64,000 bases of DNA from Siphonodentalium dalli (taxonomy: Eukaryota; Mollusca; Scaphopoda; Gadilida; Siphonodentaliidae), in assembly GCA_032622095.1 (NCBI GenBank), contig CP136061.1, positions 36,213,797 through 36,277,796 on the forward strand. Direction: 5' to 3'. The position numbers and the translations under genes are program-made. Below are positions 26,700 to 59,600 of the stretch, in pieces. Position 1 is the stretch's first letter. Each line of letters begins with the position of its first letter. The notes below the pieces were generated by a model that did not search any database, was not told the DNA's origin, and saw nothing but the letters and a program-made list of their open reading frames with translations.

Positions 26700-29600
26700 G
26701 TACGTCGGCATCGACCACATGATCGAAGTACTGTTATATAGAGTACTATAGGTTAGAAGGAATTCAATAAGTAGAATTACGTCCCTTTCGTTTTTACACC
26801 CAATCTCGAATACGTGTTAAAACAATTCTGGCGCGCGATTGGCGAATAATATGTCAAATAAATTTACAATTTCAAGAAATATATTATCCATAGCATGTAC
26901 AAAAAGTGGGCGTTTCCTAGTCTGAAATGCGTTCGTGTCCAAACAATGGCTGGTGATTGTGGCTGGGTATTGGCTTTCGTCAGGTTTGGTTTTTGGTTTT
27001 TGAAAAAAGGCGTGGCTGGAACTGGATAGTTTAGTGTGGGCGTGGTCAAACGTTAACACTGTAGCCTATGGAAATAATTTAGTTCCTTCAAACCTATATA
27101 GCTACCAAGGTTACCGGGTTTTCCTGGTTTAGAAATTAACAAATAGTTTGATACGTCTTGTATTATACACGTATACACGTATACATTGATATGAAGAATA
27201 TTTACGTTTTCTATATCTATGCTGAAGACCTCCACTTTTGTTCATTTTGTAGCTTCATTTCATAAATTTGTAACCTGCACCATTATCTTCCTCGTTAAAA
27301 AGTTACACAGATGTCACCCATTTGAAGCTCTCCAGACGGTCACACGTAAATTTTAAAAGCAGATCGACAGACATTCGCAAATATAGATAGATATGTATCA
27401 TACAGTGTTATGGATTACAAAGTAGTACGTTTGCAAGTATAATGGATGGATAAATTACGTGGGGGCTAGTTAGTTCCCATCAGTCCTACTTTCTAGATAT
27501 GTTATCTCAAAACAGCAGTGCTCAATGTATTAATCTTCGATGTAAACGTTTTGATTGCATTTGCTAATGGGAAAGATGTAACCAGTAAGCGGTATCTACG
27601 CCTGTCCCCAACCCAATTGTCCGATATGTGTAATATTGAGGCAAATTAATGTTTAAATCAAACCAATCCTACTATTAAAACGGAGAGCTTATGTATGCCA
27701 GACAGTAATGTTCGGCACCAAATTTAGGTTTCAGGTACTAGGACGAGTTCAAGCAGAGGTATACATATACGGAACCTATTTTAGTTATAAATGTTCTAGC
27801 GTCGTTTCTTTGAGCGGATTTCTTATATGTTGCAGTTTGTTGAAGTGTTCAAGATGGAGTATGAGCCAACGATTCAACAACAACTTATGTTTTCTGTTTA
27901 TGACATCGACAGCAGGTAAGTATTGTAGATAAAATATCTTGAAGTGATGTTGAACCATCATGCAACTGGGTCATCGAATGCGACATAGGATATTCATGTT
28001 AAAACTAATGTTCACAAAAACGTTATCATGTTGTGTGTATTACTAGTACACGCAGCAACTCACGTTTGTGGAATAATTGCTGTGTCCGGAATGTTTAGAC
28101 CAAGTTATAACAATTGAATTCCCTTTGAAAAAAAAGCACACGGACCGCTTTAAAATTCATTATAAACATACTTATTGTCATGTAACGTATGTCAAATTCA
28201 TGTTAGATTGGAGGACAATTTCTGAAGAAAAAAATAATATGAACATCCGCTCCCTGCAATAAGTATATATTCAAACATAAAATAACAATGAAACATACCA
28301 ACAGGCTTTGGTATGACGGGAACTGGATGTAAAGTGTATAATCGTTTGAAGTTATGTTTGGTTTTATAATCCTTGGATATCACGTTAAAAGATTGGGAAT
28401 GATGATCTCGAAGAGAGTACGACAGCGTATTAGCGCCGACTTGATTACTGTTTAAAGAGTTTAACTAACACTTTAGTCAACAGTTTAGTTAAACAGTTTA
28501 GTTAAACTGCTTAAAAAGTTTGAACTATCTTCATTTTCAGAACAACGGAGCTTAGATGTCACGATTTTGTCGGATTTGTCGAAGTGAAACTTTCTGATCT
28601 GATAGACCCCAACGAGAAATACACGACAACAACGAAGACATTGAGAGTCGCAGGTAAGAACGGTGCTCGAGTCTCGAAAAGAAGCACACATAACAGTGAA
28701 GGTTGACACAGCTAGTAATAAGTGTCTATTAAATAATCCCATATGAATGTGTATTCCTGATATGTTATGAACAAGTATGTATATTTGTTTTATTTATGCT
28801 GAATTATGTTAAAAATATAAAACAGCTGAAACAGTTATGTGACTCTTTAAATTTAAGTTTTTTTCTAGAGTATATGAACTCTTAATATCGATATTTCGTG
28901 TTTTATCGACCTAGATTGTCCAACTGATATTGCTCAATGAAACGTACAAACGACGTCTACGAAATTTGATAGGAGGGATGCGATAGATCAAGAAATACAA
29001 ATCTACAATTTAGATATGCTCTCCAATATCTTACTGAACTGAGACAAACGCTCCTTGTTTTCCCACCCCATAATGGAATAACAACGAACATTTATTGCCT
29101 CACGCTGAAGAATAATCTGGAACCGATACATGTGTTCATTCTCCAGACTACAGTTATATATACTTCCAAATTAAATGTTTCGTCCCATTCCGCGCGTTCG
29201 AATTTGAATCTACATGATCAACAAGAAAAGAACACGGGTACGAAGGTACATATTTGCCTGTATTTTACGAGTGGTGCATATCCCAAAAACAAAATAAAGT
29301 GCTGCTGCTGCTTAAAGCCACATGGCGGATTTCGCTCCAAAACACACCTAATAATATTCGCTTCTGAATTTTTCTCGATTTCGAAATAGGTATCGATTAA
29401 TACATGTACTTTAACTATACCTTTCTATGAGCAGTATATTCCCCAGAAACACGCACCGAAGTCGTCAGACATACACGTTTGTACACGATGTTGGTCCCAA
29501 ACCAAACACCTAGCCATTTGCAGGACATGGAACATAAAACAGCGTCCCGTTTTAGTATATTCCTCATATTGTAAAAATAAAGAGTGTTTGTTTCACTTAT

Positions 29601-32600: not shown

Positions 32601-35600
32601 GAAATTAAAACAATAATTGGATAGCTCCCACCTAGAGGTCACCCCCAAAGATCCATATACAATTTTGTGACGATCGGATGAGGAATGCTACCTGTATGCT
32701 GTACCAAAGCGAATTGTTGACGGACATACGGACGGACGCGAACCCATAGCAATAGATCAAACATATCTTCGTCAAGTTGAGCTAAAAGGGGCATAATTAA
32801 CAAAAGAACCAATTGACCAACCAAACCCATATTCTAACTTGACCTGTACTTTTGATTGAGAAACATATATAATCTAATTTTGGTTCAAATACAAATAACC
32901 CATACTGGTGTTATTGGTCAGAAACCAATATGTGATCGAATCAGGAAATTTCTAAGACAAAAGGGTTATGTTTGCAACAAGTATGTAACCTATGCTAGTT
33001 GAGAAACACACATACCATCTTAGATCTGGTCACATAATACAAAGTATTAGTTTTTCAGTTATCAGTTATCCGACGAAAACCAAAATGTTATCAAGTCATA
33101 TAATCTCACATGCATCGTTGGCTTATAACCAGAAATACCAACTTTGGTTCCGTTCAAATAATTCAAACTCGAGTTATCGTTCAGAAAGCAAAATATTAAC
33201 TGACGGACGGACAGCAAGAGAGATGGACGGGAGCTTCCTGAATTGTTATAGCGAAAATCATAGGTCATTGGCCTAACACATTATTGTGAAAGAATGTAAG
33301 AACAAATTATAAAAAGTTGTTCGAAAATGTAAGAAATAATGAAAAAAAATGATAAAAATTGTTATAGAATGTAAGAAAAAAATTCAAAAATTGATAAAGA
33401 ATTTAAGAAAAAGATGGCAAAAAAGGATAAAAATTGTTAAAGAATGTAAGAAATAGTGATACAATTTGATAAAGAAAGAATGTAAGAATAAATGATAAAA
33501 AATTATAAAAATATTAAAGAATGCAAGAAAATGTAGTATACGAAAACTGGCGTAAATAAAAGCATCAGACAATACAAACGTACCTTGTAAATTTATTTCT
33601 GATATATGAACAAGGAGCGAATGCTTCACTTATGTGCTAAATCTGAAATCAGCTGGAAAATTGCTATGACTGCGATCAGTTTTGTCCAAGGTATATAAGG
33701 TCTACATACCGTTATTTCGTGCAAATATCGATCTATATTGTCCAAATTCGCTAGTTCAAAGTCGCCCCGAAGACGAACCATGTATTCGTGATTGCAAATG
33801 TCTGCATTATCTTAATAAATTGTGAGACAATTCACTCCCGCATGTTCAGTTGAGTTTTTCTTTCAGGTGGAAGCCGTTCGAGATTGGAATACAACGCCTG
33901 TGTAACGACGACTGGGATAGATTGCTTCAATTTGCTATTAGATACAAAGTGGGGTATGTTCAGTGACTATAACCAAGGCTCACCGATTCGTAGCTTAATA
34001 ATTCCGTTCTGTTCACCTAGTATAGTCACCTAGATGATGCATGAACCGTATTGGAAGGAAGATAAACTTGCATACACGCCGATAGGCGCACATAGACAGT
34101 GAGATAATCGGACACACATATGTTATGTGGCCTACCATTTGGTTAGCAGGATGTCTTTCTCACAGTGCAGAAGTGGGGCAAACGATCTTTTTTGGTCAAT
34201 GGTCACTGCTATAGAAATCAATAAGACAATTTTTTCAGCGGACAATTTCTATGCGTTCAGTAGGTCTTCAATATATATACCTGTAGTGCCCGCACATCTA
34301 CTTGCGTGGCCACTTCATACAATCAGTTACTATGGTCAATGTTAAATTTGATGATTACATATTCATTTAAAGCCAAACGGCGGGTTGCGCTCCAAAATAC
34401 ACCTATACTGTATTCGCTTTTAAATGTTCCCCGGTATCTAATTAGGTAGATACATACTTGAACTACCTTTCTACGAACATTATATATATCTCAGAAAGAG
34501 GCATTGAATTCATACAAATACTACTTTGAACACGGTTTTCGGGTCACAAACAAACAACAGCCATGTGCACGACAAGGAGCAGAAAATAGCGCTACGTGTT
34601 AGTCTATTCCTGAAGACATAAAGAGAGTTTTTTTTTAACTTCTATACATACGAAAACGAGATTACCAATTTTTCACCACGTGTGGAATTGTGGTTTTAAC
34701 CACGAGCCTTTTGGCGAGTGCATGGTTAAACCACAATACCACGATTAGTGAACATGTTTTACTCTCGGCTACCATGCGTGTGTTTTATTTATGCCATAGT
34801 TATTATCTTTGATTTGTTCCGCAAATTTAGCTGGAAATTTACCGTGAACATGGCAAGTATTTTTCAGACCATATGAAGCCGGTATATCAATATTTCGTGT
34901 ATTTGTCAACCTATCTTATGCCTCCTTACCAATTACGTAGACACAACTCGAATGGCCATGGCTAACGCACTGTGTCACAATGGCGCCCAATTATCTCTGC
35001 ATTGAATAGAGTCTGGTACTTGTTTTGTGGTTGGTTTGGGAGCTGGTATCTGGCAGTATTTGGCGTTGGGTCTATCTGGGAATTTTCAGCCGTCCATAAT
35101 TGTTGAAATATATACTTTACATGTATTATCTCCAATTGGTTTGCATCCTCAATTCCAAAAATATAACGTCGATATTTAGAGTTATTCCTCTTATCTCGTT
35201 TCAGAGACGATTTCAAGATTATAGGAAAGTACCAGTCAACTCTCCGAGTGTTGAGCAGCATGAAAGGGTAACTATTCTTTCTTAAAACCACCCTGCGTGT
35301 CACGGAATTACTGTTATACACGAATACAAATGACTAATGGCATAGTGACACGAATACCTGTTCGCATATTAAAACCAATAACGTTCAACAACAGGCAAAT
35401 GTATTAATAGATATAGGGAATCTACCTGATAGTCCTTAGCCTCGTCTTTTATTCATATTCAGTACAACACACCATATAATTATGCGTGTTCTCTGTGCTC
35501 GTTTGTATGCTTTCCCCAGCAGTTCTGATTACCCGTTCAATGATTACGACCCAGCTGTATTTACATTGTATATCAGTGAATACATTCGGGTCATATTTTT

Positions 35601-38600
35601 AAACCTCGAACAAAACCTAGTAATTAATCGCGCGTGTTACGTATACCGCTGGTCATATTATGTCAAAAGTGCACAAAACATGCAGGCTGAGTGCAGCTGA
35701 AATATATATTACCCGGGAGGTTTTTTGAAGTGATATCCATTTTTGAATGAAAAACAAATAATGTTCTTTTTCTACACCAAATAACAATGGAGATAGTTTG
35801 TAGTTAGTTTTATTGTGATACGATAACAAATACTGAGCCGTTATCCTAATAGTTGAAATCCGCTTTAAAGCGACTTGACGGATTGCTCTCCAAAATACAC
35901 CTAATAATATTCTCTTTCAAAATTTTCCCGGTGTCGAAATAAGTCGATAAACTACCTACTTATGAGTATTATATGTCACAGAAAGACGCACGAAAGGCAT
36001 CAAAAATACATCTTTGAGGACGACTTTTCGGTTCCAAACAAACAAACAAAAACATCCATTTGCGCGGCATGGAACCTAAAAGTGCGTTAGTGTTAGTCTA
36101 ATCCTGATACGGTATACATAAAGAGCGTTTCTTCACTTCTGCATGTACGAAAAATTAAAAAAAGCTGGAAAATGACTGTGACCATGGAAAGTATTTTTCA
36201 GAGCACATGTAGCCAATATATCAGTATATCGTGTAATTTTCAACCTATCTTATACCTCCTTTCAAATTACATATTCATAATTTCGAAGCTCGAATGAGCC
36301 ATATCCGTTTAATTTTGTAACTATGTTAAGTCTTTTCTCAGTTTTCGGATAATACATACTTCGTACAGACATGCAATCACACTTATTTCGTTCTATTATT
36401 AACCTAATTTGATCACCGGAACGTGAAAGAAGTGACTAGTTACAAGGGTTTACCATTCCATGACTGGAGTTTCCTGAAGTTTTGCGAAAACCCTGTGCCA
36501 TGCATTCTCTTATATGCGAGTCTCCCATAGGCCTAACCATATTTACCTTGACCTTGTAAGTCAAGCATTCTCTTATATATGCGAGTCTCCATATATAAAA
36601 GAATACATTGGCACAGTATCTTCAATGCTACACTAGCGCAGCTCCCGCCGTGTAACACGTCATGAAAGGATTAAGTTTGAATGTTAATTCTTTATACACT
36701 CTTATCTCCGATAGTCATTTATATAACTTATACTTACATGTGTATCGAGATCACCGAGCACTATATTGTATTACAGGTTAGGTAATTATATTTAGGTGAT
36801 TTATACTTACATGTGTATCGAGGTGATCACAGAGTACCATATTGTATTACAGGTTAGGTAATTATATTCAGGTGATTTATACTTACATGTGTATCGAGGT
36901 GATCACAGAGTACTATATTGTATTACAGGTTAGGTAATAATACTCAGGTGATTTATACTTACATGTGTATCGAGGTGATCACAGAGTACTATATTGTATT
37001 ACAGGTTAGGTAATTATATTCAGGTGATTTATACTTACATGTGTATCGAGGTGATCACAGAGTACCATATTGTATTACAGGTTAGGTAATTATATTCAGG
37101 TGATTTATACTTACATGTGTATCGAGGTGATCACAGAGTACTATATTGTATTACAGGTTAGGTAATTATACTCAGGTGATTTATACTTACATGTGTATCG
37201 AGGTGATCACAGAGTACTATATTGTATTACAGGTTAGGTAATTATATTCAGGTGATTTATACTTACATGTGTATGGAGGTGATCACAGAGTAACACATTG
37301 TATTACAGGTTAGGTAATTATATTCAGGTGATTTATACTTACATGTGTATCGAGGTGATCACAGAGTACTATATTGTATTACAGGTTAGGTAATTATATT
37401 CAGGTGATTTATACTTACATGTGTATCGAGGTGATATCAGAGTACTATATTGTATTACAGGTTAGGTAATTATATTCAGGTGATTTATACTTACATGTGT
37501 ATCGAGGTGATCACAGAGTACCACATTGTATTACAGGTTAGGTAATTATATTCAGGTGATTTATACTTACATGTGTATCGAGGTGATAACAGAGTACTAT
37601 ATTGTATTACAGGTTAGGTAATTATATTCAGGTGATTTATACTTACATGTGTATCGAGGTGATAACAGAGTACTATATTGTATTACAGGTTAGGTAATTA
37701 TATTCAGGTGATTTATACTTACATGTGTATCGAGGTGATCACAGAGTACCACATTGTATTACAGGTTAGGTAATTATATTCAGGTGATTTATACTTACAT
37801 GTGTATCGAGGTGATCACAGAGTACCATATTGTATTACAGGTTAGGTAATTATATTCAGGTGATTTATACTTACATGTGTATGGAGGTGATCACAGAGTA
37901 CTATATTATATTACAGGTTAGGTAATTATATTCAGGTGATTTATACTTACATGTGTATCGAGGTGATAACAGAGTACTATATTGTATTACAGGTTAGGTA
38001 ATTATATTCAGATGATTTATACTTACATGTGTATGGAGGTGATCACAGAGTACTATATTGTATTACAGGTTAGGTAATTATATTCAGGTGATTTATACTT
38101 ACATGTGTATGGAGGTGATCACAGAGTACCATATTATATTACAGGTTAGGTAATTATATCCAGGTGGACATCAGATGTCCAAGTAAAGAGAAGAAGCAAA
38201 AGAAGGATCCGTCCTCTGGAGCACTCAGATTCTACGCATTCAAGTGAGTTACATGTAGTAGTCTAACCCTTCTATCCTGCAGCTTCCATTTAGTTATAAA
38301 AGTATACATTTCAACGCGTTCGGTCTATTTATATAACACAAGAGCAGAATGATTCATATTCCATGGTCGTCTGTTGAACTTATTAATTGAACATTTCCAG
38401 AGGAAACTCCTCGCCCCCCCCCCCCCCAATGAATATTTATCATATAGAACGGGCTAATTAAAATACAGACTGTTTGTGGGTCCAGATCTTAGTAGCAACT
38501 ATAATCGATATAATATCAGTTATTTCATCAAATCAGTTATTTCATAAATTTGATTTCCAAATAGGAAGCTAACAGCGTCATTGTTATAAACGATGTGCAT

Positions 38601-41600
38601 GCAGTGATTATTGTTGGTAGAATCATTGCCTTATACATATGTTTATCACCGAATTATTCGTCGCGAATAATGGAGTAAATATCTAAATTTGTGCGTAGTT
38701 CCGACGTTGAGTTCTCTGAAATAGCAGCCAAATTCTGTCTACGAAACTTGGAAGGAGGTATAAGATAGCTTGAAAAATACCCGACGTATTGTTATGCCGG
38801 CTTCATATGCTCTGAAAAATACTTTCCATGGCCACAGCCATTTTCCAGCTGTTTTCAACTTTTCGCACATAGGTGAAAAAAATCGCTCTTTGTTTCTACC
38901 ATATGCGGAATAACGTAACACAAAACGCCCTCTTCTGTTCCACGCCTTTAAAATTGCTGTTTGTTTTTGTTCGGGACCCAAATATCGTGTTAAAAGTTGT
39001 ATTTCGTATGGCGTTTTATGAAAATGCGTCTTTCTTGGACATATAATGCCCGTATAAAAGTAATTAAAGTATTCATCGACCTATTTCGATAAGGCGAACA
39101 TTATTAGGTGTATTTTGGAACGCAAACCGCCATGTTGTTTAAGTTGTAACTTTTCTTTCGATTAAGATTATGCAGTTATAACCGAAAAGGTTGAAGAAAA
39201 ATTCTACGCGCGTAATAGTAAATTTGTCTTTAAACTTTTCAGTTATAACTCAAAACAAGAGTTATTTCTTATAATTTAATCCGCGAATTCGCAAGAGAAC
39301 CACCATAAATAGAAGATAGAAGAAAAGTGAGCCATAACACTCTTGAGATTATTTCCGAAGAAAAAGACACATACCATTGAAACAGTCACGATGTCGCTCA
39401 GACCTATAGTTATCTATTGATGAATGGCGTCATCTGTTCATCGTTTGTGATTGTCTAATGGCAAGTTTGCGTGTGCACTGCGTTCGGTGCACGTGTTCCT
39501 AATAGATTTCGGTTGTAATACTGAGTTGTTAGTTTCAATTAAAAGTATTTGCAAATGCCAGCACGAGTCTTCGTCTTCGTTTCAGCGCATCGCATGACTC
39601 GCTCTGCAACTACAAAATCATTAAAGGGACACCTCGGGACTCAACCATACCCCATATTAAAGCTCGTGGGCTCTTCCCCATACAACATTCAATTCAACTG
39701 GTCGCAGCTAACGTACGAGCAAACGTACAGTCGACGTTGAACAAAATCGACTTGGAAAAAAATGCACGACGTATTTGTAACCCAGTAACTGGTTACAATT
39801 GCGTCGTATTATTTTTCTGCACCAAAATCTGCCATATATCATTGACAGGGCAACCATACCCTTGGGGATAGGAGCTTCCATAAGTTTTAGAACATGTGCT
39901 CCGATTCCTTTATCACCTCTCATCCACACCATCAGTTCTACTCTCTGTATTTGTTTTTTGAGGGATACTAAACTGTTTAAATAATCATACGCTAAGTAAT
40001 TCTGATGCAGCATTGAAATTCCCATTTAAAGGCACGGGCGGCGTTCGTTGCAGAAATATTCATATTTGTTCAAATGGCCATCAACAGAAGGAATATTAAA
40101 ATATGTATAGTTTTGTTCATATGCCAAACATAATCAGCGCGTAAATAGTATATTGTCGTCAAGACGTACGATGATGTACGTAAACAAGAGCCTGCTCGTG
40201 TTACAGAAGTTGTGCTTCTGTTTACATAACACGGTTCAATGCTATTGGTTAATCACATTCAAATGATATAAACGCTTTTTATTATTTCCATATCAGGAAA
40301 ACAGTAACAAATAACGCTCTTTATGTTTACTATATCCGGTTCTAAATAAAAGCCAGGAAACGTAACGTTTTCTGCTTTTGTTTACATAACAAAGCAAACA
40401 AAATTGACAATAACATACTGTTTATGCCATATTTCTGATTGGTGTAAGAACCAAGTCTGTCTACATTTTACAATTCTTTCTGTTTATGGCGGTTTTTGAC
40501 GGAGTTGAATATTTTAACAGCATACCACCATCAAGACCGCCCGTATCTTTAAATCGTAATAATTTAAGTATCGAATAGTTAGGCACGCGGTATATATATA
40601 TAGGCGTGGTCACATTACTCGATGACGTCATTTCTTTACCGGAAAGTAATAAAGAAATTTAGGTTATTCAGAAATAGCCTGACTGTCTAAACTTGTTGTA
40701 GTATTCCGTGGATTGGAAGATTAAGATTAAATTATTGAAACGTATAGTCTGTGATTTAATTAACTGGTGGGTTATTTGCCTTAAAACATACCACAGTCTG
40801 GTCACGACTTTTCTTCAGAATGAAACGATAAAGAGCGTTCCTTCTTCTTCTATTCTTGATAATGGTAACAATAACGAGCGTTTGTCTCACTAGTGTTTTA
40901 AAGATTGAAAAAAGCTAGGAATTGATATGAATTTCATATGTTTTTCAGAGTATACAAATCTTGTAAATTGATATGTTGCGTATATTTTCGACCTATCATA
41001 TTCCTGCTTCCAAATTACGTATAGACATAATTTAAAGGTTCAACTGAGTCATGTCCGTTAAAAGCCACATGGCGGTTCGCGCTCCAACGGCCATTTGCAC
41101 GACATGGAACCGAAAAGAGCGTTACGTGTTATTGTATTTCTGATATGGTAGAAATAAAGAACGTGCGAAAACTTTAAGACAGTTGATAAATGGCTTTGGC
41201 CATGCATGTCAAGAAACTAGGCATCGCTATTCGTGTATATGCCAACCTATCTTATACCCCTTTCAGACTTGTGTTCATAGGCGCTGTCACATAAAATATA
41301 TGATAACAATATATATACAATAAAAGAACATCATACTAGGATAAAAGAAGAGAAAACACGCGGGTAGATAAAATTAGTCTAAGAGATGGCAAATCCTAAA
41401 AAAACACAGCTATAAATTAATGGTTAAAAGTCATTCGGAGAGAAACTCCAGACAAAAGTCACTAAAAGTTTCAGTTGAGTACATAGGGGCGATTTAAAAA
41501 AGATGTGTCTTTAAAAGTTTACGAAATTCCAAACGATCATCAGTTACCCTCAGATCGTCTGGGAGTTTGTTCCACAAAGTTTGAGTCGTGATGGAGAAGG

Positions 41601-44600
41601 CTCTGTCCCCTAAAATAAGATGGTTTGAGTTAGGAAGTGCTAGGAATCTCTTCCCGTCTGATCTTCGCTGCATCGTTCCTGAAGTCCATATTGTACAGAC
41701 ACATATAGTCATCTCTGACGAGTTATAGTGCGTTCTTTTTTATTTTCACAGGACCGACATCAAACATAGCCTATTCGACTACGTGCGAGGAGGGCTAACA
41801 GTTAGAATGGTCGTCGGTATTGACTTCTCGGTAAGTTGTTCAATTCTTTAATCTCAATAACCGAATACATATGGTATGTGAGATATACAAATTTAAATAC
41901 AAATACATGGCAAAAGCATATTTAACCGGTACTTAGTTATATATATTCTTCTGTAAATACTGGCTGAACAATGGGGGGGTTACTCTTTTTAATTCCAAAG
42001 TTGTATCTGCAGTCGAAGTTGAATGTCGTCACTTGAGCTCACCCTCAAAATATTCGAGCATTCTCAACCCACCGGTATTTACTTTCTGAAATATCCAATG
42101 TCTGTTATTCAGGTTTGTTAAAAATTGAGGTCAGTCCATGCATAATAAAAAAAAAAAAAATTCCTCATACTGACTTTGACTCGGCGTCGATTAGACTAAA
42201 GACCGTTCATGCCATGCGAATCTCTAAAAATTACATACAAATCGCATGCATGCACGTTCTCTTAACATGGGGTTCACCATGTACATGTGTCATTCGAGTT
42301 CCAGGTACATTCCACCACATCCTGTTCAAACGACAGATAATAGACAGGCTTTGTTCATTTCGGTATCCATGACAGAGTTAAGATTACGTTTATAACTGGC
42401 CGAAAATTTACCGATAGCAGTCAGTTTGACAGTCGCTCACAACTATACTCACATGTCTCGCCTGTTAACAATATATATATATATGTTTTATTCTCACTCC
42501 ATCAGTCAATGGTATAGAGAACATGTACATATAATTATGTAATAATATAGTAATTAACGACGAACCTCTCGCGCACATGTGATTAGTGTTATCAATTATT
42601 GGTATGGCGATGTAAAATACATGTAATTTACATACAGAAATTACATGCAATTGTGTATCCACCCTTAGGGCGCCAATATGTGTCGCTTGGAAGTTTCCAT
42701 GATCAAGTGAAATTAGCTAACTTCAGTCTTGAATATAAAACACAGTTGTATACGAACGAATAAAGAGCATTAAGTGTTCGTATTTTCTGATATGGTAATA
42801 ATGAAGAGCGTTTTCACCGTGTCTGTGTGGAATTATGACTTGTAAGTCTCGTCATGATTATATATTAAAGCCCTTATATTACTATATCACGCTTTTAAAA
42901 CTATTTTAAGGTCACGAAAGCGATAAATTGCTAGCTTTATTTCGAGTCTTGAAACATTAATCGGGTTTTCAACTTCAATGAACTAATTCTACCGCACGGA
43001 CGAGGTCATTGTCGCTTTCGAATTAATAAAACCGACCAAACGCTTCAATGTGAATAATATACCCATATAATAAAATACGGAATCTCTGGTGTAATCGACA
43101 TGTAGTTAATACGTAACTTTACGGTTATCCAACCGTGGATAAATGTACAAATGTACTTCTTTTTGTGTTTGGAGATTGGTATTATCAAATGTGTTTCTCC
43201 GTTTTTCTTTCAGTCTTCCAATGGCAACATTTCAGATGACTATACGCTACACGATGTGAGAAATATATCAGTAAGTACTAGCATCCGTACAATTGATACT
43301 GGGTTTGTAAGTCGTAAAGCCAGCCATAAATACACGCACCAAACCATATACACGTACGTGTTCTCCACCATTGCAATATCTATTAAATAACTACGTATAC
43401 CGACATGTTACATAGCAAAGAATCATATATTTATAGTTTTAATTACTTATATTCTCTTGTTTAAATCAGATGTATATGCTATAATATAAATAGTTGTGGC
43501 AGTCGGGGTACATAGAATGGGTATAGTGGGCATATGAGGCGTGTTGTGATAATACACATATGTGCATGCAATGTAACTCTATATACTATATAGATAGGCA
43601 GCATATTCTCGTGAAAATAAGCACATTTCAACGGGTTTATTTTATGAGCGAAATAAGCTCATATTGGCATTATCTAACCTCAATATACGCTCGTTTTACG
43701 CGTTTAAAAACAAAAGTCCAATATGGGACTATTTCCGTACGAAATAAGCCCATATCGGTACTATTAAATCATCCTTTTTCATTCGACACGACTTACACTC
43801 TTTATAATGTGTTTTCACGGCGGCCCACGACAGTCAACGGAAATAAGGATATAAGCTCACTACAGTCTTATTTTAGAATCAAGTGAGTCCATTATTAACC
43901 TATACGAATAATTAGGTCCAAATTAACTGCGCGAGGATATGTTGAGATAGGACACAAGTATTATGTTAAATAATAAGTTTGGGTCAGTCGAGTAAGCTAT
44001 TGTGCCAATATAACAGTAAATGGAGAAGAATTAGCATCTGAAGTGCTCCAAACTGTTGGTAAAATAGACACAATTAAGATACATCCTCTAAATTACGTCT
44101 ATTTGTATTTGTTTAATTTGGGCGCTCAATATCTTCCCCATTATTCACACACAATTGAAAATGAAATGAGATAATCATTTCTTAATTCCAGGCAAACCAG
44201 TATTTGTACGCTTTCAAGACCCTCGCCGACTTAATCCTACAATATGACATCGAGCAGAAGATATCGGTCTTCGGCTTTGGTGCTAAACTGCCGAATCAAA
44301 ATAAAACAAGTCACTGTTTTCCACTCGGAGGAAACGGTAGTTCCAACTTCGTTCGTGGGCTGAAGGTGAGTATTGTGCCATTTTAATATTATCCAAAAAT
44401 GTAGTTACAAGGATGATAAGATTAATACCTGTCGATAGTAAATACCCTACTCTTCCAACGTATGCCTAAAAACAACAAATATATAGTTCTGTTTATTGTG
44501 AATTGATTATCATATAACCAATTGTGTATTACTGATCAACTGCTGAAAATAGGCTAATTTTTAGGTATAGGGTACCTTCACAAATAGTCTTACCATGCAG

Positions 44601-47600
44601 AGCTGCCACAAATGCCGACAAGGCCAAGAATAATTTTCGTAAATAATATAGAGTTACCTTCCAGAAAAAGTTGGCTTCAACTTGTTCTACCGATGTAGGG
44701 GTATCTCGAAAACTAAGGCCCTTTTTGGTTTTGGCAGCTCCACGAAATGAGCTATTTATAAACATTGCAGCTGGAGATTGATATCACATGATTCAGTATG
44801 ACCTTTTACATGGTTGTGGCTACGTACATCAGTAACCAATATATCCAGAATGCCAAGTGCTAGATATAAAACGAGGTTCCATTAAATTTTGCATTCTAAA
44901 CACTGTTCTAATTGCCATTAATATTTACACTCTCCGTGATTTCATCAAAGGGTACTCCTTACCACTTGCATAGCATATGTGGAGTCCTTTTTTAGAAGTT
45001 GGAATAAGTTATTGACCTCCCAGAACACGTTTATTCTGTTGAAATGAACACTATCACACACCAGGCTAGACCCCCGACAACACGATGTGGTGTGTCTGGT
45101 TGTTGGCTTTCCTAGTTTTCAGTTAATTAATTGGAGGTAGCTCCACAAAGCAATTCACCCAATATACGAAATGTGACCTGACATGAACACAACAGGCTGG
45201 TATGGACCATTGATAGTATACATAAAAATGTTATCACAGATCGATTTATATGATTTAGGCATGTTAAGGGTTCAATGGGACACTGTATTGCGTTTGTACG
45301 TAATTTCAACAGGAAAGTGATGCTTGATAACGGTTATGATTGTTCTACCGGTCGCACTTGATTAATTATTATTTTGATGTTTATCGAATTCAACAGGGAC
45401 TGTACAACTGCCCTGCAGTTTATTCGACGAAATATATATATAATTTATTGAAACAAATCCAATTTTGATTTATGATTTCAATTTTATAAATAAATAAATG
45501 ATTAATAGATGATACTAAATTTCAATGTCTTTGGATCGCACTGGAGTCTTCAGATGCATAGTGGTGGATTATTATTCTAGGTCGTGGGTAAATCTATGTT
45601 CGGATAGATGAAAGTCCAAAGTTTCGGTGAAATGAGTCAGTGTTGGTGATTTAACTACATAGTTAGGTAGTTTGTTCCACTCGGTACACACTCGCTGTGA
45701 GAATGTGAATTTCCTTACGTTTTTAGTTTTCTGACTAACTTGCAGTTTGAAACCGTGACCCCGAGTTGCTCCTTAGGTATTATATGTGAAAAATTGTGTA
45801 GAATCCATGTTGTATAATCCCCTCAAAAGTGTATATGTTTCCACCCGGTCTGCTCACATCAGCCTGTATTTTATCGAAGGTAGATTTAGTATTAAGAGTC
45901 TCGTGCCATAGCTATGTTTCTTTAGACTGGGTACCATTCTCGTTGCCCCGAAAGGACATGGATGGTAAACGGAATAGATGCGAGCCAAAAATAGTCGATT
46001 CTTATTATATTACTAATTCCCGCGTTGTAATTGACGAACTGTACGACCACATGATGGCAAACGGGTGAATAATCCATTGGTAATGATAGGTTTTCTGGTG
46101 TCATATCATCAGTTTGACTTGTTATGTCCAATATACTATGGAATTCAGGTTCTGAATGCTGAATGACATTATGAGCAATGTAGTCCAATAACTGCTTGCA
46201 GTAAAATGTTATTAATATCTGGAGTTAATAACGTGCCATGTTAATTTTGGTTAGAACGTTATCGTGAACCCAAGGACTTGCGAAAATGAAGGAAGTTGAA
46301 TTAGTACGCTTAACTATGGAGTTGCCCGTGGTTCACTATAATAAAAAATGGCATATTTCAGATCATATTATACAGGCCGATCAATGTATAGCCCAATGCC
46401 TCTAACTGTTCTAATCCTATTCGATTATGAGTTATCAGGTCAGTCTGGCTTTGCTCAATCCCTTAACCCTTTACCCAACAAACCGGCCAAAAACGGCCAA
46501 ATAAAGCTGCAACAGCCTAAATTATCTTCGGTCTGTCTCAATAAAACCATACAAATATGGATATCATTGGAACCGGCTCATTGACCACATTGTGATCGTT
46601 ACAGTTATGCCCTGTGCCAATGCATTCTCTTATATATGCGAGTCGACCATATGTCGCCTCGCATATATAAGAGAATGCATTGGCCTAAAAAAAAATTTCT
46701 TACATTCTTTAACAATTTTATAATTTTTAATGTGTTAAGCCAATGCATTCTCTTATATATGCAAGGCGACCTATGGTCGACTCGCATACATAAGAGAATG
46801 CATTGGCACAGGGCCGTTATGTTGGGTAAAGGGTTAACAGTATTTATTCCATGGTTAATACAACAATAATAAATGCAATGATTTATTCTCATAACACATG
46901 ACAGATGCGTATGGAGATTAACATAACTTATAAACAAACACTGGTAACAAGAAAATATATACAATGTACAAATGTATGGCGGCATTGGAGATCATGTAGT
47001 CACGATTATAATATTATATGTACTCATTCGAAAGGTTGCATACGTAGCAATAACTAAATAGTTCAGATGGTATATGTCAACCAGGCTGATTTTCGTCGAA
47101 CCTCTTAAAATGGTATGTATAAATTTGCATGCCGTATTTGGCATGGGTTTTGTACATTGAGAAGTTCATCCATTGTTGTAATGTTTGGTCTATTCAGGTA
47201 TTCTTTTGATATATGACATTTTCTCTCGTGCTCAAGCGCTTCACATTCAAATAGGTAATGGTATTCGTCTCCTAGTCTGTTATCTCTACATAGCGGGCAT
47301 GTTCGTTCCCTTAGATCTGTACCATTCCAGCGACCGGTTTCCATTGGCAAATGGTGATTTGATGTTCTAAATTTACATAATATAGTTCTATTAAATTCAT
47401 TTGGAGTGTCTAGATAGCCTTCATATGAGATATCATGTTTGAATATCTGATATTTTTTTCTCCAGCTAGAATTTTGCAGATCTGCTTCCCAGTTCAATCG
47501 GAATTGGCTAATCATGCTACATTTCACGTACTCGATAAGTTGGTCTACGTTTGTCGCTATGTCGCTATCACATACATGAGCTTGGGAACATGACTCTAAG

Positions 47601-50600
47601 ATATGACGAATGGAACTCAGCCAACTGATATGACTTGAGTCGTTTGATAACGTGCGTGATAAATGATATAGTACTTTATAGTATCGCTTTTCATCCATGT
47701 TAACTAATCTACACCAATATTTAATCATTCGTGGTTTAATTAAAATTTCTAAAGGCATTCGGCCAGTTTCTGCATAAACCATGTAGTCAGTCGTCGAAGG
47801 TTTTACTCCCAATAAGTGCTTCATAAATTGTCGGTGAACATTCTCAATAATGGCACAATCTTCATGGCCCCACACCTCACACCCATAGAGGAGTACTGGC
47901 ACTACTTGTACATTAAATAATTCGAATTGGTGTTTATACTCAAGCAGTGTTTACGGGCTTTCGGTATAACAGAGTACATTGCTTTCATGCCTTTATAGAA
48001 GCCAAATTTGTCTTGACTTCTCCAAATTTTCCCGTCTTCGAGAGAATAATTCCGAGATAATTGAAGTTTTTAACCACATCGATACTTTTACCATAGAGTT
48101 TAAATTGTGCATTTTTTGGTAAACCATTTTTAGAGAACATTACAATTTTTGCTTTGTCTGCATTTACTTTGTTAATTTACAGATATCACAATATCTTTCA
48201 AATGATAAAAGCTGCTTTTTCAGTTTCTCGCTGTCTCTGCCATAACTACTGTGTCGTCTGCGTATAGAAGGACACATATTGAACATATATGTGCAGTTTC
48301 TCAACAATTTCATCTGAGATGGTAATAAGACCTTTCGTGCCTTGTTCGGCGAGAAAAGTGTCTAGGTCATTAAGGTAGATGGAGAAAAGAAGGGGTGGGA
48401 GGATCGGATTCGACATCCAAGTGTGTAGACTTAAAGGCACGTGTGGCCTTAATTGTCGAAAATATTCATAATTGTTCCAAACACCGTAAACAGAAAAACA
48501 TTAAAACGCATACAGTTCCGTTCATATATACCATGACCATCGCGTAAACAGCATGTTATCATAAAGAACTACTATATTTTACCTAATCAAGAGCCTGATT
48601 GTGTTACAGAAGACAGCACAATGCTACTGGCTAATCACACACACATGGCATAAACGCTCTTTATTAGTTCCATATTAGGTATTCACCAACAAAGAACGCT
48701 CTTTATGTGTACCATCATAATATAAACAAACACCAGAAAAGCAACTTTTTATGCTTTTGTTTACATAATAATGGTCAAACATTTGACAATAACATACTGT
48801 TTATGCGATATTTCTTATTTGTATACGGACAAAGTCTATCTACATTTTGATGCTCTTTCTGTTTGTGGCGGTTTTTGACGGGTGGAGATATTTTCACAGG
48901 ATACCCACCGCCAAGGCCAACCGTGTCTTTAAATTTAACATATAGTTACCTCTTAATTACGACAAGTTAGGCTATACCCGATGTATTTCACTGATGCATA
49001 TTCAACTTTTGGACTATATATAACTCGCCCAAGTACTAACCAATATGGACGGTTCATTATCGCGAAACTGAGTGAAAGAATCACTCCAGTGACACAGGAG
49101 AGAGTGACGAGAAACATTTGGACCAATAGAAATCATGCATGTACAGTGTCATGTGATCAAGTTATTTTAGTTTGTTAGTGCATGCAGTACAATACAGCAG
49201 TGATAAAAATGCATTTAATTGTGCTCAAAATGTGCTCAGATGAATATGGGTGAATTATCACTATATAACATAATGTTATCATGAAAGCGTCGGTTTTCCA
49301 GTTCGCAGTATCGCTTATGGCGCGTGGTTTAAATAGAGTTTATAAACATGAAATATGTACCCATGTTGTTATGTAGAACAATCCCTTTGTATTAGAAAGA
49401 AGCATACCAATACACATACCGACCTCTTATTTTGACAGGGCGTTGAGAATATGTATGCCAAAGAGACGCCAAAACTCAAGTTTGCGGGACCGACAAAGTT
49501 GTCGCCGTTAATACAGAGAGCGATCGACATAACTACAAACAACATATGTAAACAAGGCAACCAGGTGTATCACGTACTGCTTATAATAACGGTGAGTGTC
49601 ACGTAAACAAGGCAACCAGGTGTATCACGTACTGCTTATATTAACGGTGAGTGTCACGTAAACAAGGCAACCAGGTGTATCACGTACTGCTTTTATTAAC
49701 GGTGAGTGTCACGTAACCAAGGCAACCAGGTGTATCACGTGCTGCTTATATTAACGGTGAGTGTCACGTAACCAAGGCAACCAGGTGTATCACGTACTGC
49801 TTATATTAACGGTGAGTGTCGCGCAACCAAGGCAACCAGGTGTATCACGTGCTGCTTATAATAACGGTGAGTGTCACGTAAACAAGGCAACCAGGTGTAT
49901 CGCGTACTGCTTATATTAACCGTGAGTGTCACGTAAACAAGGTAACCAGGTGTATCACGTACTGCTTTTATTAACGGTGAGTGCCGCGTAAACAAGGTAA
50001 CCAGGTGTATCACGTACTGCTTATAATAACGGTGAGTGTCACGTAAACAAGGCAACCAGGTGTATCACGTACTGCTTATATTAACGGTGAGTGTCACGTA
50101 ACCAAGGCAACCAGGTGTATCACGTGCTGCTTATATTAACGGTGAGTGTCACGTAACCAAGGCAACCAGGTGTATCACGTACTGCTTATATTAACGGTGA
50201 GTGTCACGTAAACAAGGTAACCAGGTGTATCACGTGCTGCTTATATTAACGGTGAGTGCCGCGTAAACAAGGTAACCAGGTGTATCACGTGCTGCTTATA
50301 ATAACGGTGAGTGTCACGTAACCAAGGCAACCAGGTGTATCACGTACTGCTTATATTAACGGTGAGTGTCACGTAACCAAGGTAACCATGTGTATCACGT
50401 ACTGCTTATATTAACGGTGAGTGTCACGTAAACAAGGTAACCAGGTGTATCACGTGCTGCTTATATTAACGGTGAGTGCCGCGTAAACAAGGTAACCAGG
50501 TGTATCACGTGCTGCTTATAATAACGGTGAGTGTCACGTAAACAAGGTAACCAGGTGTATCACGTACTGATTATATTAACGGTGAGTGTCACGTAAACAA

Positions 50601-53600
50601 GGTAACCAGGTGTATCACGTGCTGCTTATATTAACCGTGAGTGTCACGTAAACAAGGTAACCAGGTGTATCACGTGCTGCTTATATTAACCGTGAGTGTC
50701 ACGTAAACAAGGCAACCAGGTGTATCACGTGCTGCTTATATTAACGGTGAGTGTCGCGTAAACAAGGCAACCATGTGTATCACGTGCTACTTATAATAAC
50801 GGTGAATGTCACGTAAACAATGCAACCAGGTGTATCACGTGCTACTTATATTAACGGTGAGTGTCACGTAAACAAGGCAACCAGGTGTATCACGTACTGC
50901 TTATATTAACGGTGAGTGCCGTCTGTGCCCCGCAATGCCTTTGCAATGTCAATCTAATATATATTTTGGGACTTCTGTTTGTCTGTCTGTTTGTCTGTTA
51001 GCTATGGCCGGGAAAACTGCCGGACGGATTTCTACGAAAATCGTGACCCCGACCTGACCTTGGCCTTCAAAATGGTCAATGCATGGTCAAATCGAGTAAA
51101 ACGGACGGATTTTGACGAAATTTGATACCTAGGGATGCTTTTGTCCGGGGAGTGTTTTGGATGGGTCAAATCGTGACCCCGACCTGACCTTGACCTTCAA
51201 AATGGTCAATTCAAGGTCAAATCGCGCTTTTCGACATCCCGGGTGCTTCGTGCCCAACTACTCAATTCATCCTGTAAGGTGTTATTTGTTATTTGAGCGA
51301 CGATATTCCAATAATATATGATACTAGCTGGTGGGCCGGACGGATTTCGACGTAAATATTGACCCCGACCTGACCTTGGCCTTCAAAATGGTCAATTCAT
51401 GGTCAAATCGAGTAAAACGGACGGATTTTGACGAAATTTGATACCTAGGGTTACTTTGGTCCGGGGAGTGTTTTGGATGGATCAAATCGTGACTCCGACC
51501 TGACCTTGACCTTCAAAATGGCCAATTCAAGGTCAAACAGAGGGGAAACCGCCCGGATGAAGTCGGGACCACCAGCTAGTATCATATATTATTGGAATAT
51601 CGTCGCTAAAATAACAAATAACACCTTACAGGATGAATTGAGTAGTTGGGCACGTAGCACCCGGGATGTTTTTAACAGCCTGGGGCTACTGCGAACCGCT
51701 CTCATCGACTGAAGTCCCACTTTAATATGAGCTCCACCCTTACGAGATGGTCATGAGCCCATACCCAGGAAGTCCACCCCGAGCACGATGACCATCAGTC
51801 AGTCGGTCGTGACCACTCGTACTCTTCAGACAGCGAACCCATCATGTGGAAGTCCCGCCCAGAGTAACCTCCCTACGAGACGTATCACACAGCATGGACC
51901 CAGAACAAAGTATAGACAATTCGCGCCCGGGATGGTCGAAAAGAGCGAGTGATCTTCTCCTTCACCTCCAACAAATACGAATGATATCGGATCGTTAAAT
52001 CACATAACATCACACCTATCTCTTTTGGTGTCAAAATATTACTCATTACTGTATTTACCAAAATATTTATGAAAAGTGCCTTGTGTCTTAATACCAAGAA
52101 ATTAAAATCAGACGATTTAAGTTTCGCCACTGCTGTTGCAATTAATGTAGTAACACAATACACAGCGCACCGCACAGTGTTATCGTTCGTTGCCGAAAAC
52201 GCAACCCTGGCTTCATTGTTACAGTGATGTGTGTAAACAATGGCATCTAGTAACTGAGGGATTATTGCTAATAAAATAACAACAAATTCCTTCTATTTTT
52301 TCATGTTCTACTTGATAATAATTGTACTTATATATCGTCTATCCCTACGAGGGCCCTAAGCGCTTCACATTATTACCCCAGCTGTTAGTAATGCCGAGTC
52401 TTCTGCATGCAGATATGCATTTTTATAGGCGCTTCACAAGGGCGGATTACAACATACCCAACAACCAGGTCCCTATTTCTCGTCTAGGTACGACGGAGCG
52501 AGCACAGTATGAGTGACCTTGCCCAAGGGTCACAACCTGGCGCGAGATTTGAAACAGCGTGTAGCTATATATAGCACACTCACCGCTTAATTAATCCGGT
52601 CAAGCCACTGTTGTTGAGAACATTGTCCATCGCCGGGGCGCCAGCTCATGCCGGTGCCTTGACACTATTACAAGTCCGACACTCTAACCACTGGGCTATC
52701 GCTTCCACCAGTACTTGGTCATACTGGTTAGCACACTCTATATTTTTCAAGCTGTACCGACCGAGAACACCTTTCGTATACTTAATCATTCCACTGTGCA
52801 TAGACACAACCGATCCCTGGTAAATAACTGACATACTTGCCCAGATACACGAATAATGTTACCCTCCCTCTACGTATATTGTATTCGAATCTAATACCAG
52901 CATCCGAAAGGAGCGAACATAGGCCCTAGCCTTATGTGGCCTATATGTTATCAGTCCCTTTAATAAGTGCAGTAATATATTGAGGGGTGCGAAGCCTTCA
53001 CAATACGAGCGACCTTTCTTATGGGTCACAAGTAGGCGCGAGATTTGAACAGCGAGTAACTCTATATTCACAGTGTGCTTAATTCGAACTATTGCTCCCG
53101 TAAGTATGTGTTCTATTGTTATCGACATTCCACTGTACTTAGCACAGCTGTTATTGTAACATGTGTGGTGTATAGATGAGTTCATACCTGTTTAAGAAGT
53201 GACACACACGTGATAAATGTGTTATTTAATTTCAGGACGGAATCACAAACGATTACGACCAAACCCTAGAGATATTGGTGGAATCCAGCGATCTTCCTCT
53301 GTCTGTCATTATTGTTGGCATCGGTCCTGCTGATTTCTCATTCATGGTTAGTACATAACAGAAATCATTTAAGAACTAAGACAAGATAATCAATTCACCA
53401 GACCTGACGTGCCAATTATGATCTACTCGAAAAATCTTGTTCTTCGATTGCATGTAAAAATACACACATGTTGGTATGACGACCGGGTATATTAAACATA
53501 TCTTTACACACACGTTATACTATGACGACCGGGTATATTAAACATAATTTTACACGGCCGTTGTTATGACGACTGGGTATATTAAACATACGTTTACACG

Positions 53601-56600
53601 CGTGTTGCTATGACGACCGGTTATATTAAACATAAGGTTACACGCACGTTCCTATCACGACCGGTATATTAAACATAAATGTACACACACCTTACCAAGC
53701 CGACCGGGTATATTAAACATAAGTTTACACGCATGTAGTTATGACGACCGGGTATATTAATCATAAGTTTGATAGTGAAGTCACCGCGATATACGTTTCT
53801 GAAGACAACTAACTTTTTTTGTTAATTTTTATTGATCAAAATTATATATATATTGCTACAAAATTAGCAATCAAGATTATCTCTCATACGCTCTTTCGTC
53901 CACCCAGCCTAGTAATACCTTTCACACACCTGCCCTTTCACTCATCGTGACATTCCTTTTAAATACACGCTTCTAGTATTTGGTCAAAGAGCTAATTTTT
54001 CCACGCATAACATTCACCTGTTTTGCGCGCTAGAAAAAATTAAATAGCCAACGTAGAACCGACCCAGGTCACAGGTACAAAACGAGGTTCTCGCCCTGCA
54101 ACGATTGGTGGGAGCAAGCACGTTGGGGAGGTGGTTGCTGACCGGAAAGTACAGTTGTTTTTAAAGACGATTCGGGCACCAGTGGCTATTCAACTTGTTT
54201 AATCTGTCGTTTTATTATGGTACAACTGATGTATAACGGTGGGTTGGAGCTTCGAATGTGCTTACTGTGTGGCATTTCAATCTTCACTACTTTTCGATAG
54301 GAAGAACTGCAACACAGCGATAGACTTCTCAAAAGCACGATATCTGGTAAAGTGGCGAGTCGACGGAACACACAGTTTATGGTGATGACGAAACAGGTTC
54401 TTACGGAAAGCGGCGGTCAGGCGTTGGTAAGTAATGCTTGTGCAACATATTCTCGTTCGAATAGGTTCAAATATGGAACCTATAAATTTTCACATACTTT
54501 CATATTGAACTTCTGAAATAAGCCATAGTGAACTCAAATCCGTTATTCCGTTAAACCGCGTGGGCCACATTGAAAACACATTACCACGGTAATTTTGGCT
54601 TGTATAGAACATATTGCTCAAATTGTGCCACATTGCACTTATTGGTTTTGAATTACGTTCATTTTAAACTTATCTCGACATCCAAACAGGTTCAAATTGA
54701 GCTCACGAGACAGGCTGTTAGCTATCATGGCCCCTTGAAAATAATTATTTCTCCATTTACAACAGCCTTACATATACGTTTAAGCCACATACGCATACGC
54801 ACAGTCTATGAAAATACAAAGGACATAAATGTCACATATAATTACGAAAATGAAGAAGTTCACCCAGAAGAAACGTTGAGGAATGACTCTAAAAATAAAT
54901 ACATGGAAAATTAATTACTTTCTAAAGTTTGCCTTTCAAATAACTGTTGTTGGTTAAAACAGATATACATGAGTGTGTGTTAAATCTAGTGTATGTGTTA
55001 AATCTAGTGTATGTGTTATATCTAGTGTATGTGTTAAATCTAGTGTATGTGTTATATCTAGTGTATGTGTTATATCTAGTGTATGTGTTATATCTAGTGT
55101 ATGTGTTATATCTAGTGTATGTGTTATATCTAGTGTATGTGTTATATCTAGTGTATGTGTTATATCTAGTGTATGTGTTATATCTAGTGTATGTGTTATA
55201 TCTAGTGTATGTGTTATATCTAGTGTATGTGTTATATCTAGTGTATGTGTTATACCTAGTGTATGTGTTATATCTAGTGTATGTGTTATATCTAGTGTAT
55301 GTGTTATATCTAGTGTATGTGTTATATCTAGTGTATGTGTTATATCTAGTGTATGTGTTATATCTAGTGTATGTGTTATATCTAGTGTGTGTGTTATATC
55401 TAGTGTGTGTGTTATATCTAGTGTGTGTGTTATATCTAGTGTGTGTGTTATATATAGTGTGTGTGTTATATATAGTGTGTGTGTTATATCTAGTGTATGT
55501 GTTATATCTAGTGTATGTGTTATATCTAGTGTATGTGTTATATCTAGTGTATGTGTTATATCTAGTGTATGTGTTATATCTAGTGTATGTGTTATATCTA
55601 GTGTATGTGTTATATCTAGTGTATGTGTTATATCTAGTGTATGCGTTATATCTAGTGTATGTGTTATATCTAGTGTATGTGTTATATCTAGTGTATGTGT
55701 TATATCTAGTGTATGTGTTATATCTAGTGTATGTGTTATATCTAGTGTATGTGTTATATCTAGTGTATGTGTTATATCTAGTGTATGTGTTATAACTAGT
55801 GTATGTGTTATATCTAGTATATGTGTTATATCTAGTATATGTGTTATATCTAGTGTATGTGTTATATATAGTGTATGTGTTATATCTATGCTAGTGGGTG
55901 CGTTGAATCCTTTAGTCCGATCAACAAAATGCTTGAAAGTTATGGATGCTTTAGTTCATGACAGTCGGAGAGACAACAGAGCTGTAACTAATTAAAACCT
56001 TTCTATACCAATTCAACATTGGCTAGAAGTTGTCGCATAGGAAATGTTCAGATAATAATATATCGACCAGGGGGGGGGGGGGGGTGAAAAAAAATTTCCG
56101 GCACATATGCCGGGGTGGGTGGTCAAATATTCTGCTTGTTTTTTAAGTGTTTTGGCAATGAGTTGGGCTTCAAAACCACTTTGAATGAGAGAAATAATGT
56201 AATTCTAACTGGTAAACTGACTGCAGGCAGTTATCGTGTTGTATTTTGTTGCAAATTTTGAAATCCAAGATGGCCGCTGGCAGCCATGTTTTTTTGGCCG
56301 AATGACCTCAAAATGACTCATTCCTATTTACATGTCCATGTTAACATCCATGATAAATAGTATGCACAGAAATTCATATACAGCTGTTTACAGTGAATTT
56401 TCCCCCCGCAAATCTCTGTTTTAGTGTTAAAAGGGGGGGGTGGGTGTCAAAAAATGGTCGGAAAAAACTGCCGTAAACGGAAAAAAAATTGGCGGTGGGG
56501 GTGGGTGGGTACAAAAAATGATCGAAAGGGAAAAAATGCCATACGTGCCTGAAATATTTTTCCGACCCCCCCCCCCCTGTATCGACCAGTAAACTTATTA

Positions 56601-59600
56601 CCAAAGCATTTCCCTAAATAAATAGGGCCCCTTCTGCATGCACTTTATTTATCTGTCATCTGCTTTCATCACCTTAACATCCCTCCAAATGAATAATACA
56701 CTATACCATTGTATGTTTGTATAACTGAATGGGAGAATCCATTTAGTAGAGTATGGGCTAAAGAGGCATTGAGCACTCCGCTGGGGTGAGCGAATGTGAA
56801 TAGAGAAGACTATTGCTCACATATTATTTTATTATTTTTCAAAATTAATATTCCCGAGTTGGCAGAACACAACGTAATATTCATACACACTAATCGTAGA
56901 CAGTCAGTGACTATTGTTGCGTTGCGATGCATTGCCATTCGTTCGTCGTTGATTAATTCATTCCAAACAAAGCACTAAATATTTATAATTGTTTAAAAGT
57001 TGTGTTGTCTAAAATAGTAGGAACAATGAGGTTGAAATTATTGCCAGTATATATTTGTTGAATGTCATCCAAGTTGCATAGAGCCTGGGTACTTACATAT
57101 CAGTCCGAGTCACTATAAATATAAAGCGCCTGGATATGGCCCCTGCGTCGCTGAAGAAAGGCTCCCAAATGGAGACTGTTTTATCTATAATTGATATGAT
57201 CGCAATGAAAAACATTAACATGGCGTTGTGTATTTCAGGCTAGAGAAACAATGGCCACGTTATCTAGTCAAGTTGTGCAATACCTCAAGAGTAGAAACAT
57301 TTCTCCAAACAAACCGAAATTTGGTTGCTCAATATTCCGGAAATCACGAAACAAATGGACGAGGAGCAGTTCCGCCAATGACGTCATCAATGCGAGCAGC
57401 AGACCGCTATCTGGCAGTTTAAACAGAACTCACAGCGCAACGCTCCAGCGTTCCGGCAGCGCGACGCATATGTCGGAAGCAGAAATGGGTAAGTGTGCAT
57501 TTTCTGATATATATTTTTGTATCATTTATTCGTCGTTTTGATACAATTTTCAATTATTACAATGGTGTATTGCATACAAACATAATACATAGTACATACA
57601 GAAAATACTACTAATAGTAATAGACAAGTGTTTTTTATATTATGACCGTATGTAGAACTAAATTTGTCGCCATGCCCATCAAATGTGTTTTACTTTATAT
57701 TTGCCTGAAATGTTGCACGTATGATGATGTTTGGTCTTATACTTTGTGAAACTGCAGAGGAAACTAGGTTATAGAAAAGCTGAAAGTTCTGTAGTAGTGC
57801 CCTGCCCTGCAGTACTTTGTATACTATGGTTTTGGGACTTAGTAGATAGTCTTTCAAAGTACAAACATGGTTGGGCATCAACTATATGATGATTGAGAGT
57901 AATATATAGTGTTGGGCGTTTAACCTGTCGGAGAAAATAATCAATGATCGAGTGAAGAGAACATGTCTAGGACACTCCCATTTCCCCCCAAATTGCATTT
58001 CTAAGTGAGACATTCCATGTACATGCTTGTTGTTCATTGTTATACTCTTGGTTAAAGAAAAGAACAGCTTCTTCAATACCTAAGTTGTTTTTGCCGCTTT
58101 TTGTTATGTATATATATACCGTTTTATCAACAGCATTATGCTATATATTGAAGTACATCTGTTCCTGTACTTACCCCAAAGATTATATCTTCTTTTTTGG
58201 AGGAATTTGGGTTTTCTGAGATAGTTACACTCCTACAGCAAGGACTATATATTATGGTCCCTGTGTGTTCGTCAGTGACTCTTCGATACGATAAATGTGT
58301 AAAATCACGCCACGATGCCACTATTTTCCCACAGTGACAAACAAAAGGTGATGATATGTCAGAAAAATAGCAACATTTCACATTTCGGCGGCCATCTTGG
58401 CCGCCATATTTGATTTTGGTTCCGGAATTTTGGCTAGTTTGTAAGGGTTGTATATTAGCATAACGAATCGAGCGGAGAAAAGACCGCATGTGATATCATC
58501 TTTAGTTTAACGGCGATCAAAGAGACCTGGTGCATATTAAAACAAATGGCCGCCATGCTGGACGCCATCTTGCCTGGAGTATCTGCGGCCACTTTTTTTC
58601 TTGTTAACAACCGAAAAAAGCTAGAGGAGACATTAAGAAAGAAAATTAGTGGGGTGAAGTTGATTCCTGTGGGGGATGCAGAGGTCGACCAATATCCCCT
58701 TGACTAATTAACCGTGTATCATAATGTCCCGTTGTTGTGCGACCGGTCGTCCGTATCAGTTAACAACACAAGTGTCGTCACATTGGCATGCGCGCCATGG
58801 CGATGCAGGGTTAGCAGAACATAATTCGTGTTTGATCCTGAAGTACCGATGCACTGGGTAGCCCACTCCACGACAACAGGACAAGGTGGGCACAGAAAAC
58901 GATATCTTCCAATCAGGGAGGTGGCAAGACCGCGTTCCTACATGGTGCGGGTGACAAACTTTGAATTTCCAACGAAACACTCGCGCGTTGAAGACCAAAG
59001 CTGTACTTTATACAAGTACGGTTGATTCAGTCATGAAATCTGCAATTGTTGAAAAAATTGAGGGTTTGGGGTGAGAAAACCCAACCCACTGTCACCTTGT
59101 CTCGGCCCTGTTAAATTTTACAAGAGCGTATGTATATTTCAGCCCCGACAATAACGTCGTTTCTATAAGATAAACTTGTTTTAAAAAACGAGCTACATGT
59201 AGCATTATGTTAATAACACGTGGTGTGTTTAATTCGCGATTACGCGCTCACCGCGTGTTGCTATATGGGGCGTATTTTCAACTTCATTGATGTCGGTTTG
59301 TTTATATTTTTGCCTGATTTTATTTTGGGCTCATTTGCGTTCACATATCAATTATCTCTTTTAATATTGTCAAAAATCATAGTTATATTTCAGTTTGATT
59401 TGCAGTCAATCTATTGGTATATGATTATAAGGAACGACTGGACGATCGATCGGAGTCATTGGGTTTTGACCGGCAGAGGAATTAACACACATTGTTTAAT
59501 TACTCTGCCGATCAAAACCCAAGGACCAAGGTGTTTTCTTAACGACAAACCCCTGTATCTCGGGTCAATTTGGTGTTATTTCACCTCAGCGATATCAACT

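Follow-up and report, generated by a model that had tools for sequence, protein, structure and literature searches.

Minisatellites that embed a splice donor are already known as a kind, with ABCA7 and IFI6 as examples. A minisatellite with multiple splice donors in IFI6 (6-16, G1P3) was reportedly described by Turri in 1995. Two downstream repeat units of this gene are reported to be used as donors, which leads to three mRNA species and different isoforms (PMC4526556). In human ABCA7, the VNTR of intron 18 adjoins exon 18, donor included, and consists, in the reference, of 23.7 units, each 25 bp long (PMC5954066). Retention of one unit through the second donor was about 2% and was unaffected by length, the pairing of this figure with this isoform following from sentence order in the source. 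A longer VNTR went with more exon 19 skipping and less expression. In one brain area, the canonical isoform was outweighed in 90% of cases by the sum of the alternative ones, of which exon 19 skipping made up most (PMC5954066). Other reports describe related cases: a potato RdRp gene gained an intron by tandem duplication across an intron-exon border (PMC4974935, which also cites genes of fission yeast in which an intron spans several exonic duplicates of 24 bp), the length of the miR-137 VNTR correlated with splicing at donors inside the pre-miR-137 sequence (PMC6692358), and a substrate with two strong 3' splice sites was spliced poorly, with a several-fold gain on reducing double occupancy (PMC5389562).

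We analyzed a stretch of 64,000 nucleotides from the scaphopod Siphonodentalium dalli (hereafter the window), in which a 55-bp array lies on the end of exon 12 of a predicted copine gene. The array resembles that of ABCA7 in sitting directly on an exon end with the donor included, in the loss of frame that one added unit would cause when splicing moves to the next donor, and in that the next exon can be skipped in frame. It differs in its unit, as that of ABCA7 has 25 bp and starts at the donor GT, whereas the copine unit has 55 bp, of which 44 are coding bases. A further difference is that length variation and RNA effects are demonstrated for ABCA7, where length influenced next-exon skipping but not one-unit retention. 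IFI6 is similar in that repeat units supply alternative donors; its downstream units yield isoforms, however, whereas each of the 24 downstream copine donors gives a stop. In the potato RdRp gene, the duplicated stretch likewise crosses a splice border with its signals, but it is a single duplication that gave a new intron and not an array. Among the matches listed in the open-licence literature, we met no gene that combines a donor array with an acceptor array, and no donor unit with 44 coding bases. Among the papers listed in the open-licence literature under acceptor arrays, ABCA7 was the sole array on a splice site that we recognized.

The copine gene and the array at exon 12

The gene was searched for by tblastn with a human copine query; many rows, with E values up to 50, are chance matches. 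Six rows had E < 0.01, at five places (26550, hit twice, 41654, 44195, 49436, and 53236) that follow the order of the protein. The rest of the model (Table 1) was built from weaker tblastn rows, splice sites, and phase, and exons 7, 10, and 14 from a splice-site scan only. Confidence is lowest for exons 7 and 8, which lie in the diverged second C2 region. The predicted product matches the Pfam families Copine (PF07002, E 1.1e-52) and C2 (E 1.9e-15) and aligns with the copine BONZAI 1 (PDB 6kxk/6kxu) over residues 16-519 of 582 (E 1.3e-58), the likeness extending over the C2 and copine domains. The BONZAI 1 alignment crosses both C2 regions. The product differs from the copine family in its second C2 domain (33867-38243), which is diverged; at a threshold of E 0.001, Pfam reports one C2 stretch, in residues 19-118.

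Table 1 Coordinates of the copine gene and of its splice-site arrays in the window
Feature	Positions	Strand	Remarks
Copine gene model, 15 exons, 14 GT-AG introns	26508..57488	+	582 codons open; start codon and 3' end provisional
Second array, 76 bp x 19	36728..38166	+	Unit carries exon 8 acceptor (TRF)
Copine exon 8, VDIRCPSKEKKQKK...	38164..38243	+	Acceptor within last copy of 76-bp array
Copine exon 12, 153 nt, phase 0, GVENMYAK...LLIIT	49439..49591	+	Pfam Copine PF07002 E 7.7e-9; BONZAI 1 alignment
Copy 1 of 55-bp unit	49548..49602	+	44 nt of exon 12 end and 11 nt of intron 12
Donor 1, GTGAGT	49592..49597	+	Sole donor of 25 that keeps the copine frame
24 more unit copies within intron 12	49603..50922	+	GTGAGT intact in 23
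TAA in frame on donor 1 read-through (VSVT*)	49604..49606	+	Sequence, frame test
Copine exon 13, 111 nt, phase 0	53236..53346	+	Skipping in frame, minus 37 codons

The preliminary description of this locus held that the 55-bp unit contains the last codons of copine exon 12 together with its GTGAGT donor. Cutting the array in register, the Pfam match, and the alignment all bear this out: each unit has 44 exonic and 11 intronic bases and spans the exon end and its donor. Tandem Repeats Finder (TRF) reported 55 bp x 24.9 at 49548-50918, with 94% matches, 0% indels, and a score of 2343, and a cut every 55 bp gave 25 full head-to-tail copies in register at 49548-50922, namely the real exon end and 24 others. 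The array and its start were thus correctly described, but 24 copies rather than about 25 follow the real donor, and the repeat stops at 50918-50922 and not at 50930. As in a splice-donor VNTR, the array is continuous with the end of exon 12, real donor included, and a donor is present in most units. GTGAGT is intact in 24/25 copies, as the preliminary description had said of nearly all of them, and copy 23 has GTGAAT. With a slash at the exon end, the 9-mer ACG/GTGAGT is exact in 21 of the 25 copies, the true exon end among them, ACC/GTGAGT occurs in 3, and ACG/GTGAAT in 1.

A 20-base core of the unit had 25 matches in the window at up to 3 mismatches, every one of them within the array; 100 shuffles gave a mean of 0.02. 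Beyond the array, the window has 14 GTGAGT on the + strand and 14 on the - strand. Nineteen distinct sequences are found among the 25 copies (13 once and 6 twice), and 16 of the 55 columns are variable. No strong higher-order period was detected, the mean differences per pair being 2.75-3.35 at lags 1-12 and 3.18 over all pairs.

Reading frame and variation at the 25 donors

The join 49591/53236 reads LLIIT/DGITNDYD and lies opposite LLIITDGVITD in BONZAI 1; because of this match, donor 1 is the donor that makes the copine. Read-through of donor 1 runs into a stop after VSVT, and the spliced models for donors 2-25 meet a stop in 24/24 cases. All of these later donors share the first junction, LLIIT-VSVT, at which the models displayed for donors 2, 3, 4, and 25 end. 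On the sequence, donor 1 is therefore alone among the 25 in preserving the predicted copine frame. The preliminary description had anticipated both the stop and the first donor as the only productive one. Its reason for excluding in-frame growth of the exon, a unit length of 55, does not suffice, since three units make 165 bp. In-frame growth is excluded because the TAA directly follows the first junction, independently of unit length. Loss of exon 12 (153 nt) or of exon 13 (111 nt) would leave the model open.

Conservation of the donor hexamer does not clearly exceed that of the remaining unit. Variation affects one of the 6 hexamer columns and 16 of all 55 columns (P 0.43), and among 50 six-column windows, 24 contain no more than one variable column. 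The hexamer accounts for a single one of the 60 variant cells, a level reached by just 8 of the 50 six-column windows; these cell counts are not independent, because the copies share ancestry. Selection on the donors thus lacks clear support, by columns (P 0.43) as by cells (matched in 8/50 windows). In the exonic part, 7 of the 12 changes among copies are nonsynonymous, compared with 77% expected without constraint (P 0.16). Nothing in the array appears to require selection, and weak selection would be compatible with the data.

A special RNA fold was not found in five unit stretches, which folded no better than shuffles (z -0.05 to 1.46). The donor 9-mers of the array are predicted to be nearly fully paired (P unpaired 0.000-0.026; region median 0.007), and P unpaired is at most 0.002 at 5 of the 13 other donors of the copine gene. 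Rfam gave 0 matches at the gathering score in the whole window.

The array at exon 8 and other repeats of the window

A second array of the copine gene, which the preliminary description does not mention, has a 76-bp unit, terminates in the first bases of exon 8, and is a mirror image of the donor array. Upstream of the real exon 8 acceptor, which is weak (2.6 on a rough score), there are 17 CAG copies and one TAG copy. With the TAG copy left out, each of the upstream CAG acceptors leads to a stop (17/17), and the last copy alone stays open. Splice-site arrays thus make up 2 of the 6 arrays counted in the gene, which have units of 70, 75, 76, 55, 44, and 18 bp; the count does not include three small TRF arrays (28452, 38510, and 50974). 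Under simple assumptions, and in a test designed after the data had been seen, the chance that at least two of six founder units span a junction is P 0.03. This hints that two splice-site arrays in one gene exceed what chance easily gives.

Other repeats were observed in the window. An array of 18 bp x 50.7 with 98% matches occupies 54976-55888 in intron 14 and has open frames of up to 340 codons on both strands. Upstream of the copine gene, a 353-bp tandem array of about 8 copies (4674-7628) is covered by two adjoining TRF rows, and an 81-bp array (9009-9417) has GTAAGT in only some units. Intron 12 also holds an inverted repeat (51234-51669) with arms of 108 nt that are 96% complementary and 220 nt apart, which looks like a small transposable element. 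A 281-codon open frame on the - strand of intron 11 (47108-47950) has no Pfam match at E 0.01. It belongs to ten open frames of 117-281 codons, among 25 listed, for which no Pfam family was found at E 0.01; the open frames in the Pfam scan include four within the 18-bp array and one in exon 15.

Competing explanations and meaning for the gene

We favor the view, at a probability of about 0.7, that the 55-bp array is a young, homogenized minisatellite over a splice border, in which donor 1 would mostly be used with a low nonsense leak. It is read as such because the donor columns are not clearly better kept and because amino acids change freely among the copies. The array would have originated in a tandem duplication across the border of exon 12 and intron 12 and would then have expanded by slippage or unequal exchange; in the simplest model, the old intron 12 was enlarged by 24 x 55 = 1320 bp. 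By exon definition, the spliceosome is presumed to select the strong donor closest to the exon 12 acceptor, so that donor 1 would be used in most transcripts. Against this, when two donors are equally strong, the site closer to the 3' splice site can win, reportedly a subject of work by Eperon from 1993 and 2000. Low-level use of later donors might yield transcripts with the VSVT stop, which would probably be degraded. Growth of such arrays would be tolerated because the outermost copy remains joined to the exon. The donors would be intact through the youth and homogenization of the array and not through selection on each of them, to which the quietness of the hexamer, with 1 of the 60 variant cells, is a counterpoint. 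The one-unit retention of about 2% in ABCA7 (PMC5954066) speaks for this view, whereas the poor splicing of a substrate with two strong 3' splice sites (PMC5389562) and the presence of two splice-site arrays in one gene weigh against it.

An intron-proximal donor can be favored among equal donors, and this speaks for a reading in which the downstream donors win, the VSVT stop is present in most transcripts, and expression is poor or the gene is being lost. The identity of 21 of the 25 donors over 9 bases, the real one included, and the stop given by each of donors 2-25 would fit such a case. However, the 15 exons are free of stops, the 14 introns are GT-AG, and residues 16-519 of the 582 still align with a copine, as selection on the gene would predict, and we regard this reading as very improbable. 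That the copy number was inflated or invented during assembly is less probable still: long arrays are difficult to assemble, but the 19 distinct sequences among the 25 copies are unlike the stutter of one read and therefore disfavor simple assembly stutter.

Control by array length would give the repeats a role. The preliminary description suggested that the copies might act as decoys or that array length could tune splicing, and both ideas are hypothetical. The donor array of intron 12 and the acceptor array of intron 7 would bind splicing factors, and their length would set the yield of full-length copine via exon 13 skipping or nonsense transcripts. VNTR length in ABCA7 correlates with skipping of the next exon and lower expression (PMC5954066), two crowded strong 3' splice sites lowered splicing in a study of double occupancy (PMC5389562), whose result is relevant to both copine arrays, and skipping of exon 13 (111 nt, phase 0) leaves the frame open while removing 37 codons of the copine domain. 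The presence of a second splice-site array within the gene points the same way. Since the donor columns are without a clear sign of selection and the fold of the unit is not unusual, we consider such control unlikely. By the ABCA7 precedent, a length effect on splicing is nevertheless possible, and the predominance of the alternative isoforms there, in 90% of cases for one brain area, means that an array of this kind need not be harmless. A wider version, with two opposed ladders of 19 acceptors and 25 donors whose outermost members are productive and whose copy numbers both act as a heritable dial on full-length copine, seems quite unlikely to us; in this version, the copies next to exon 12 may also provide conversion templates for the last 14 codons of that exon.

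Under the minisatellite reading preferred here, donor 1 is most likely the splice site, with a small nonsense leak, and regulation by array length is possible by analogy. The locus is a natural experiment on the choice of one donor among 25 near-equal donors at a spacing of 55 nt. Its readout is clean, as all later donors run into one and the same stop, and the acceptor array of the same gene is the mirror experiment. The donor array also suggests a route by which an intron may grow by more than 1 kb from its splice border while the protein is unaffected.
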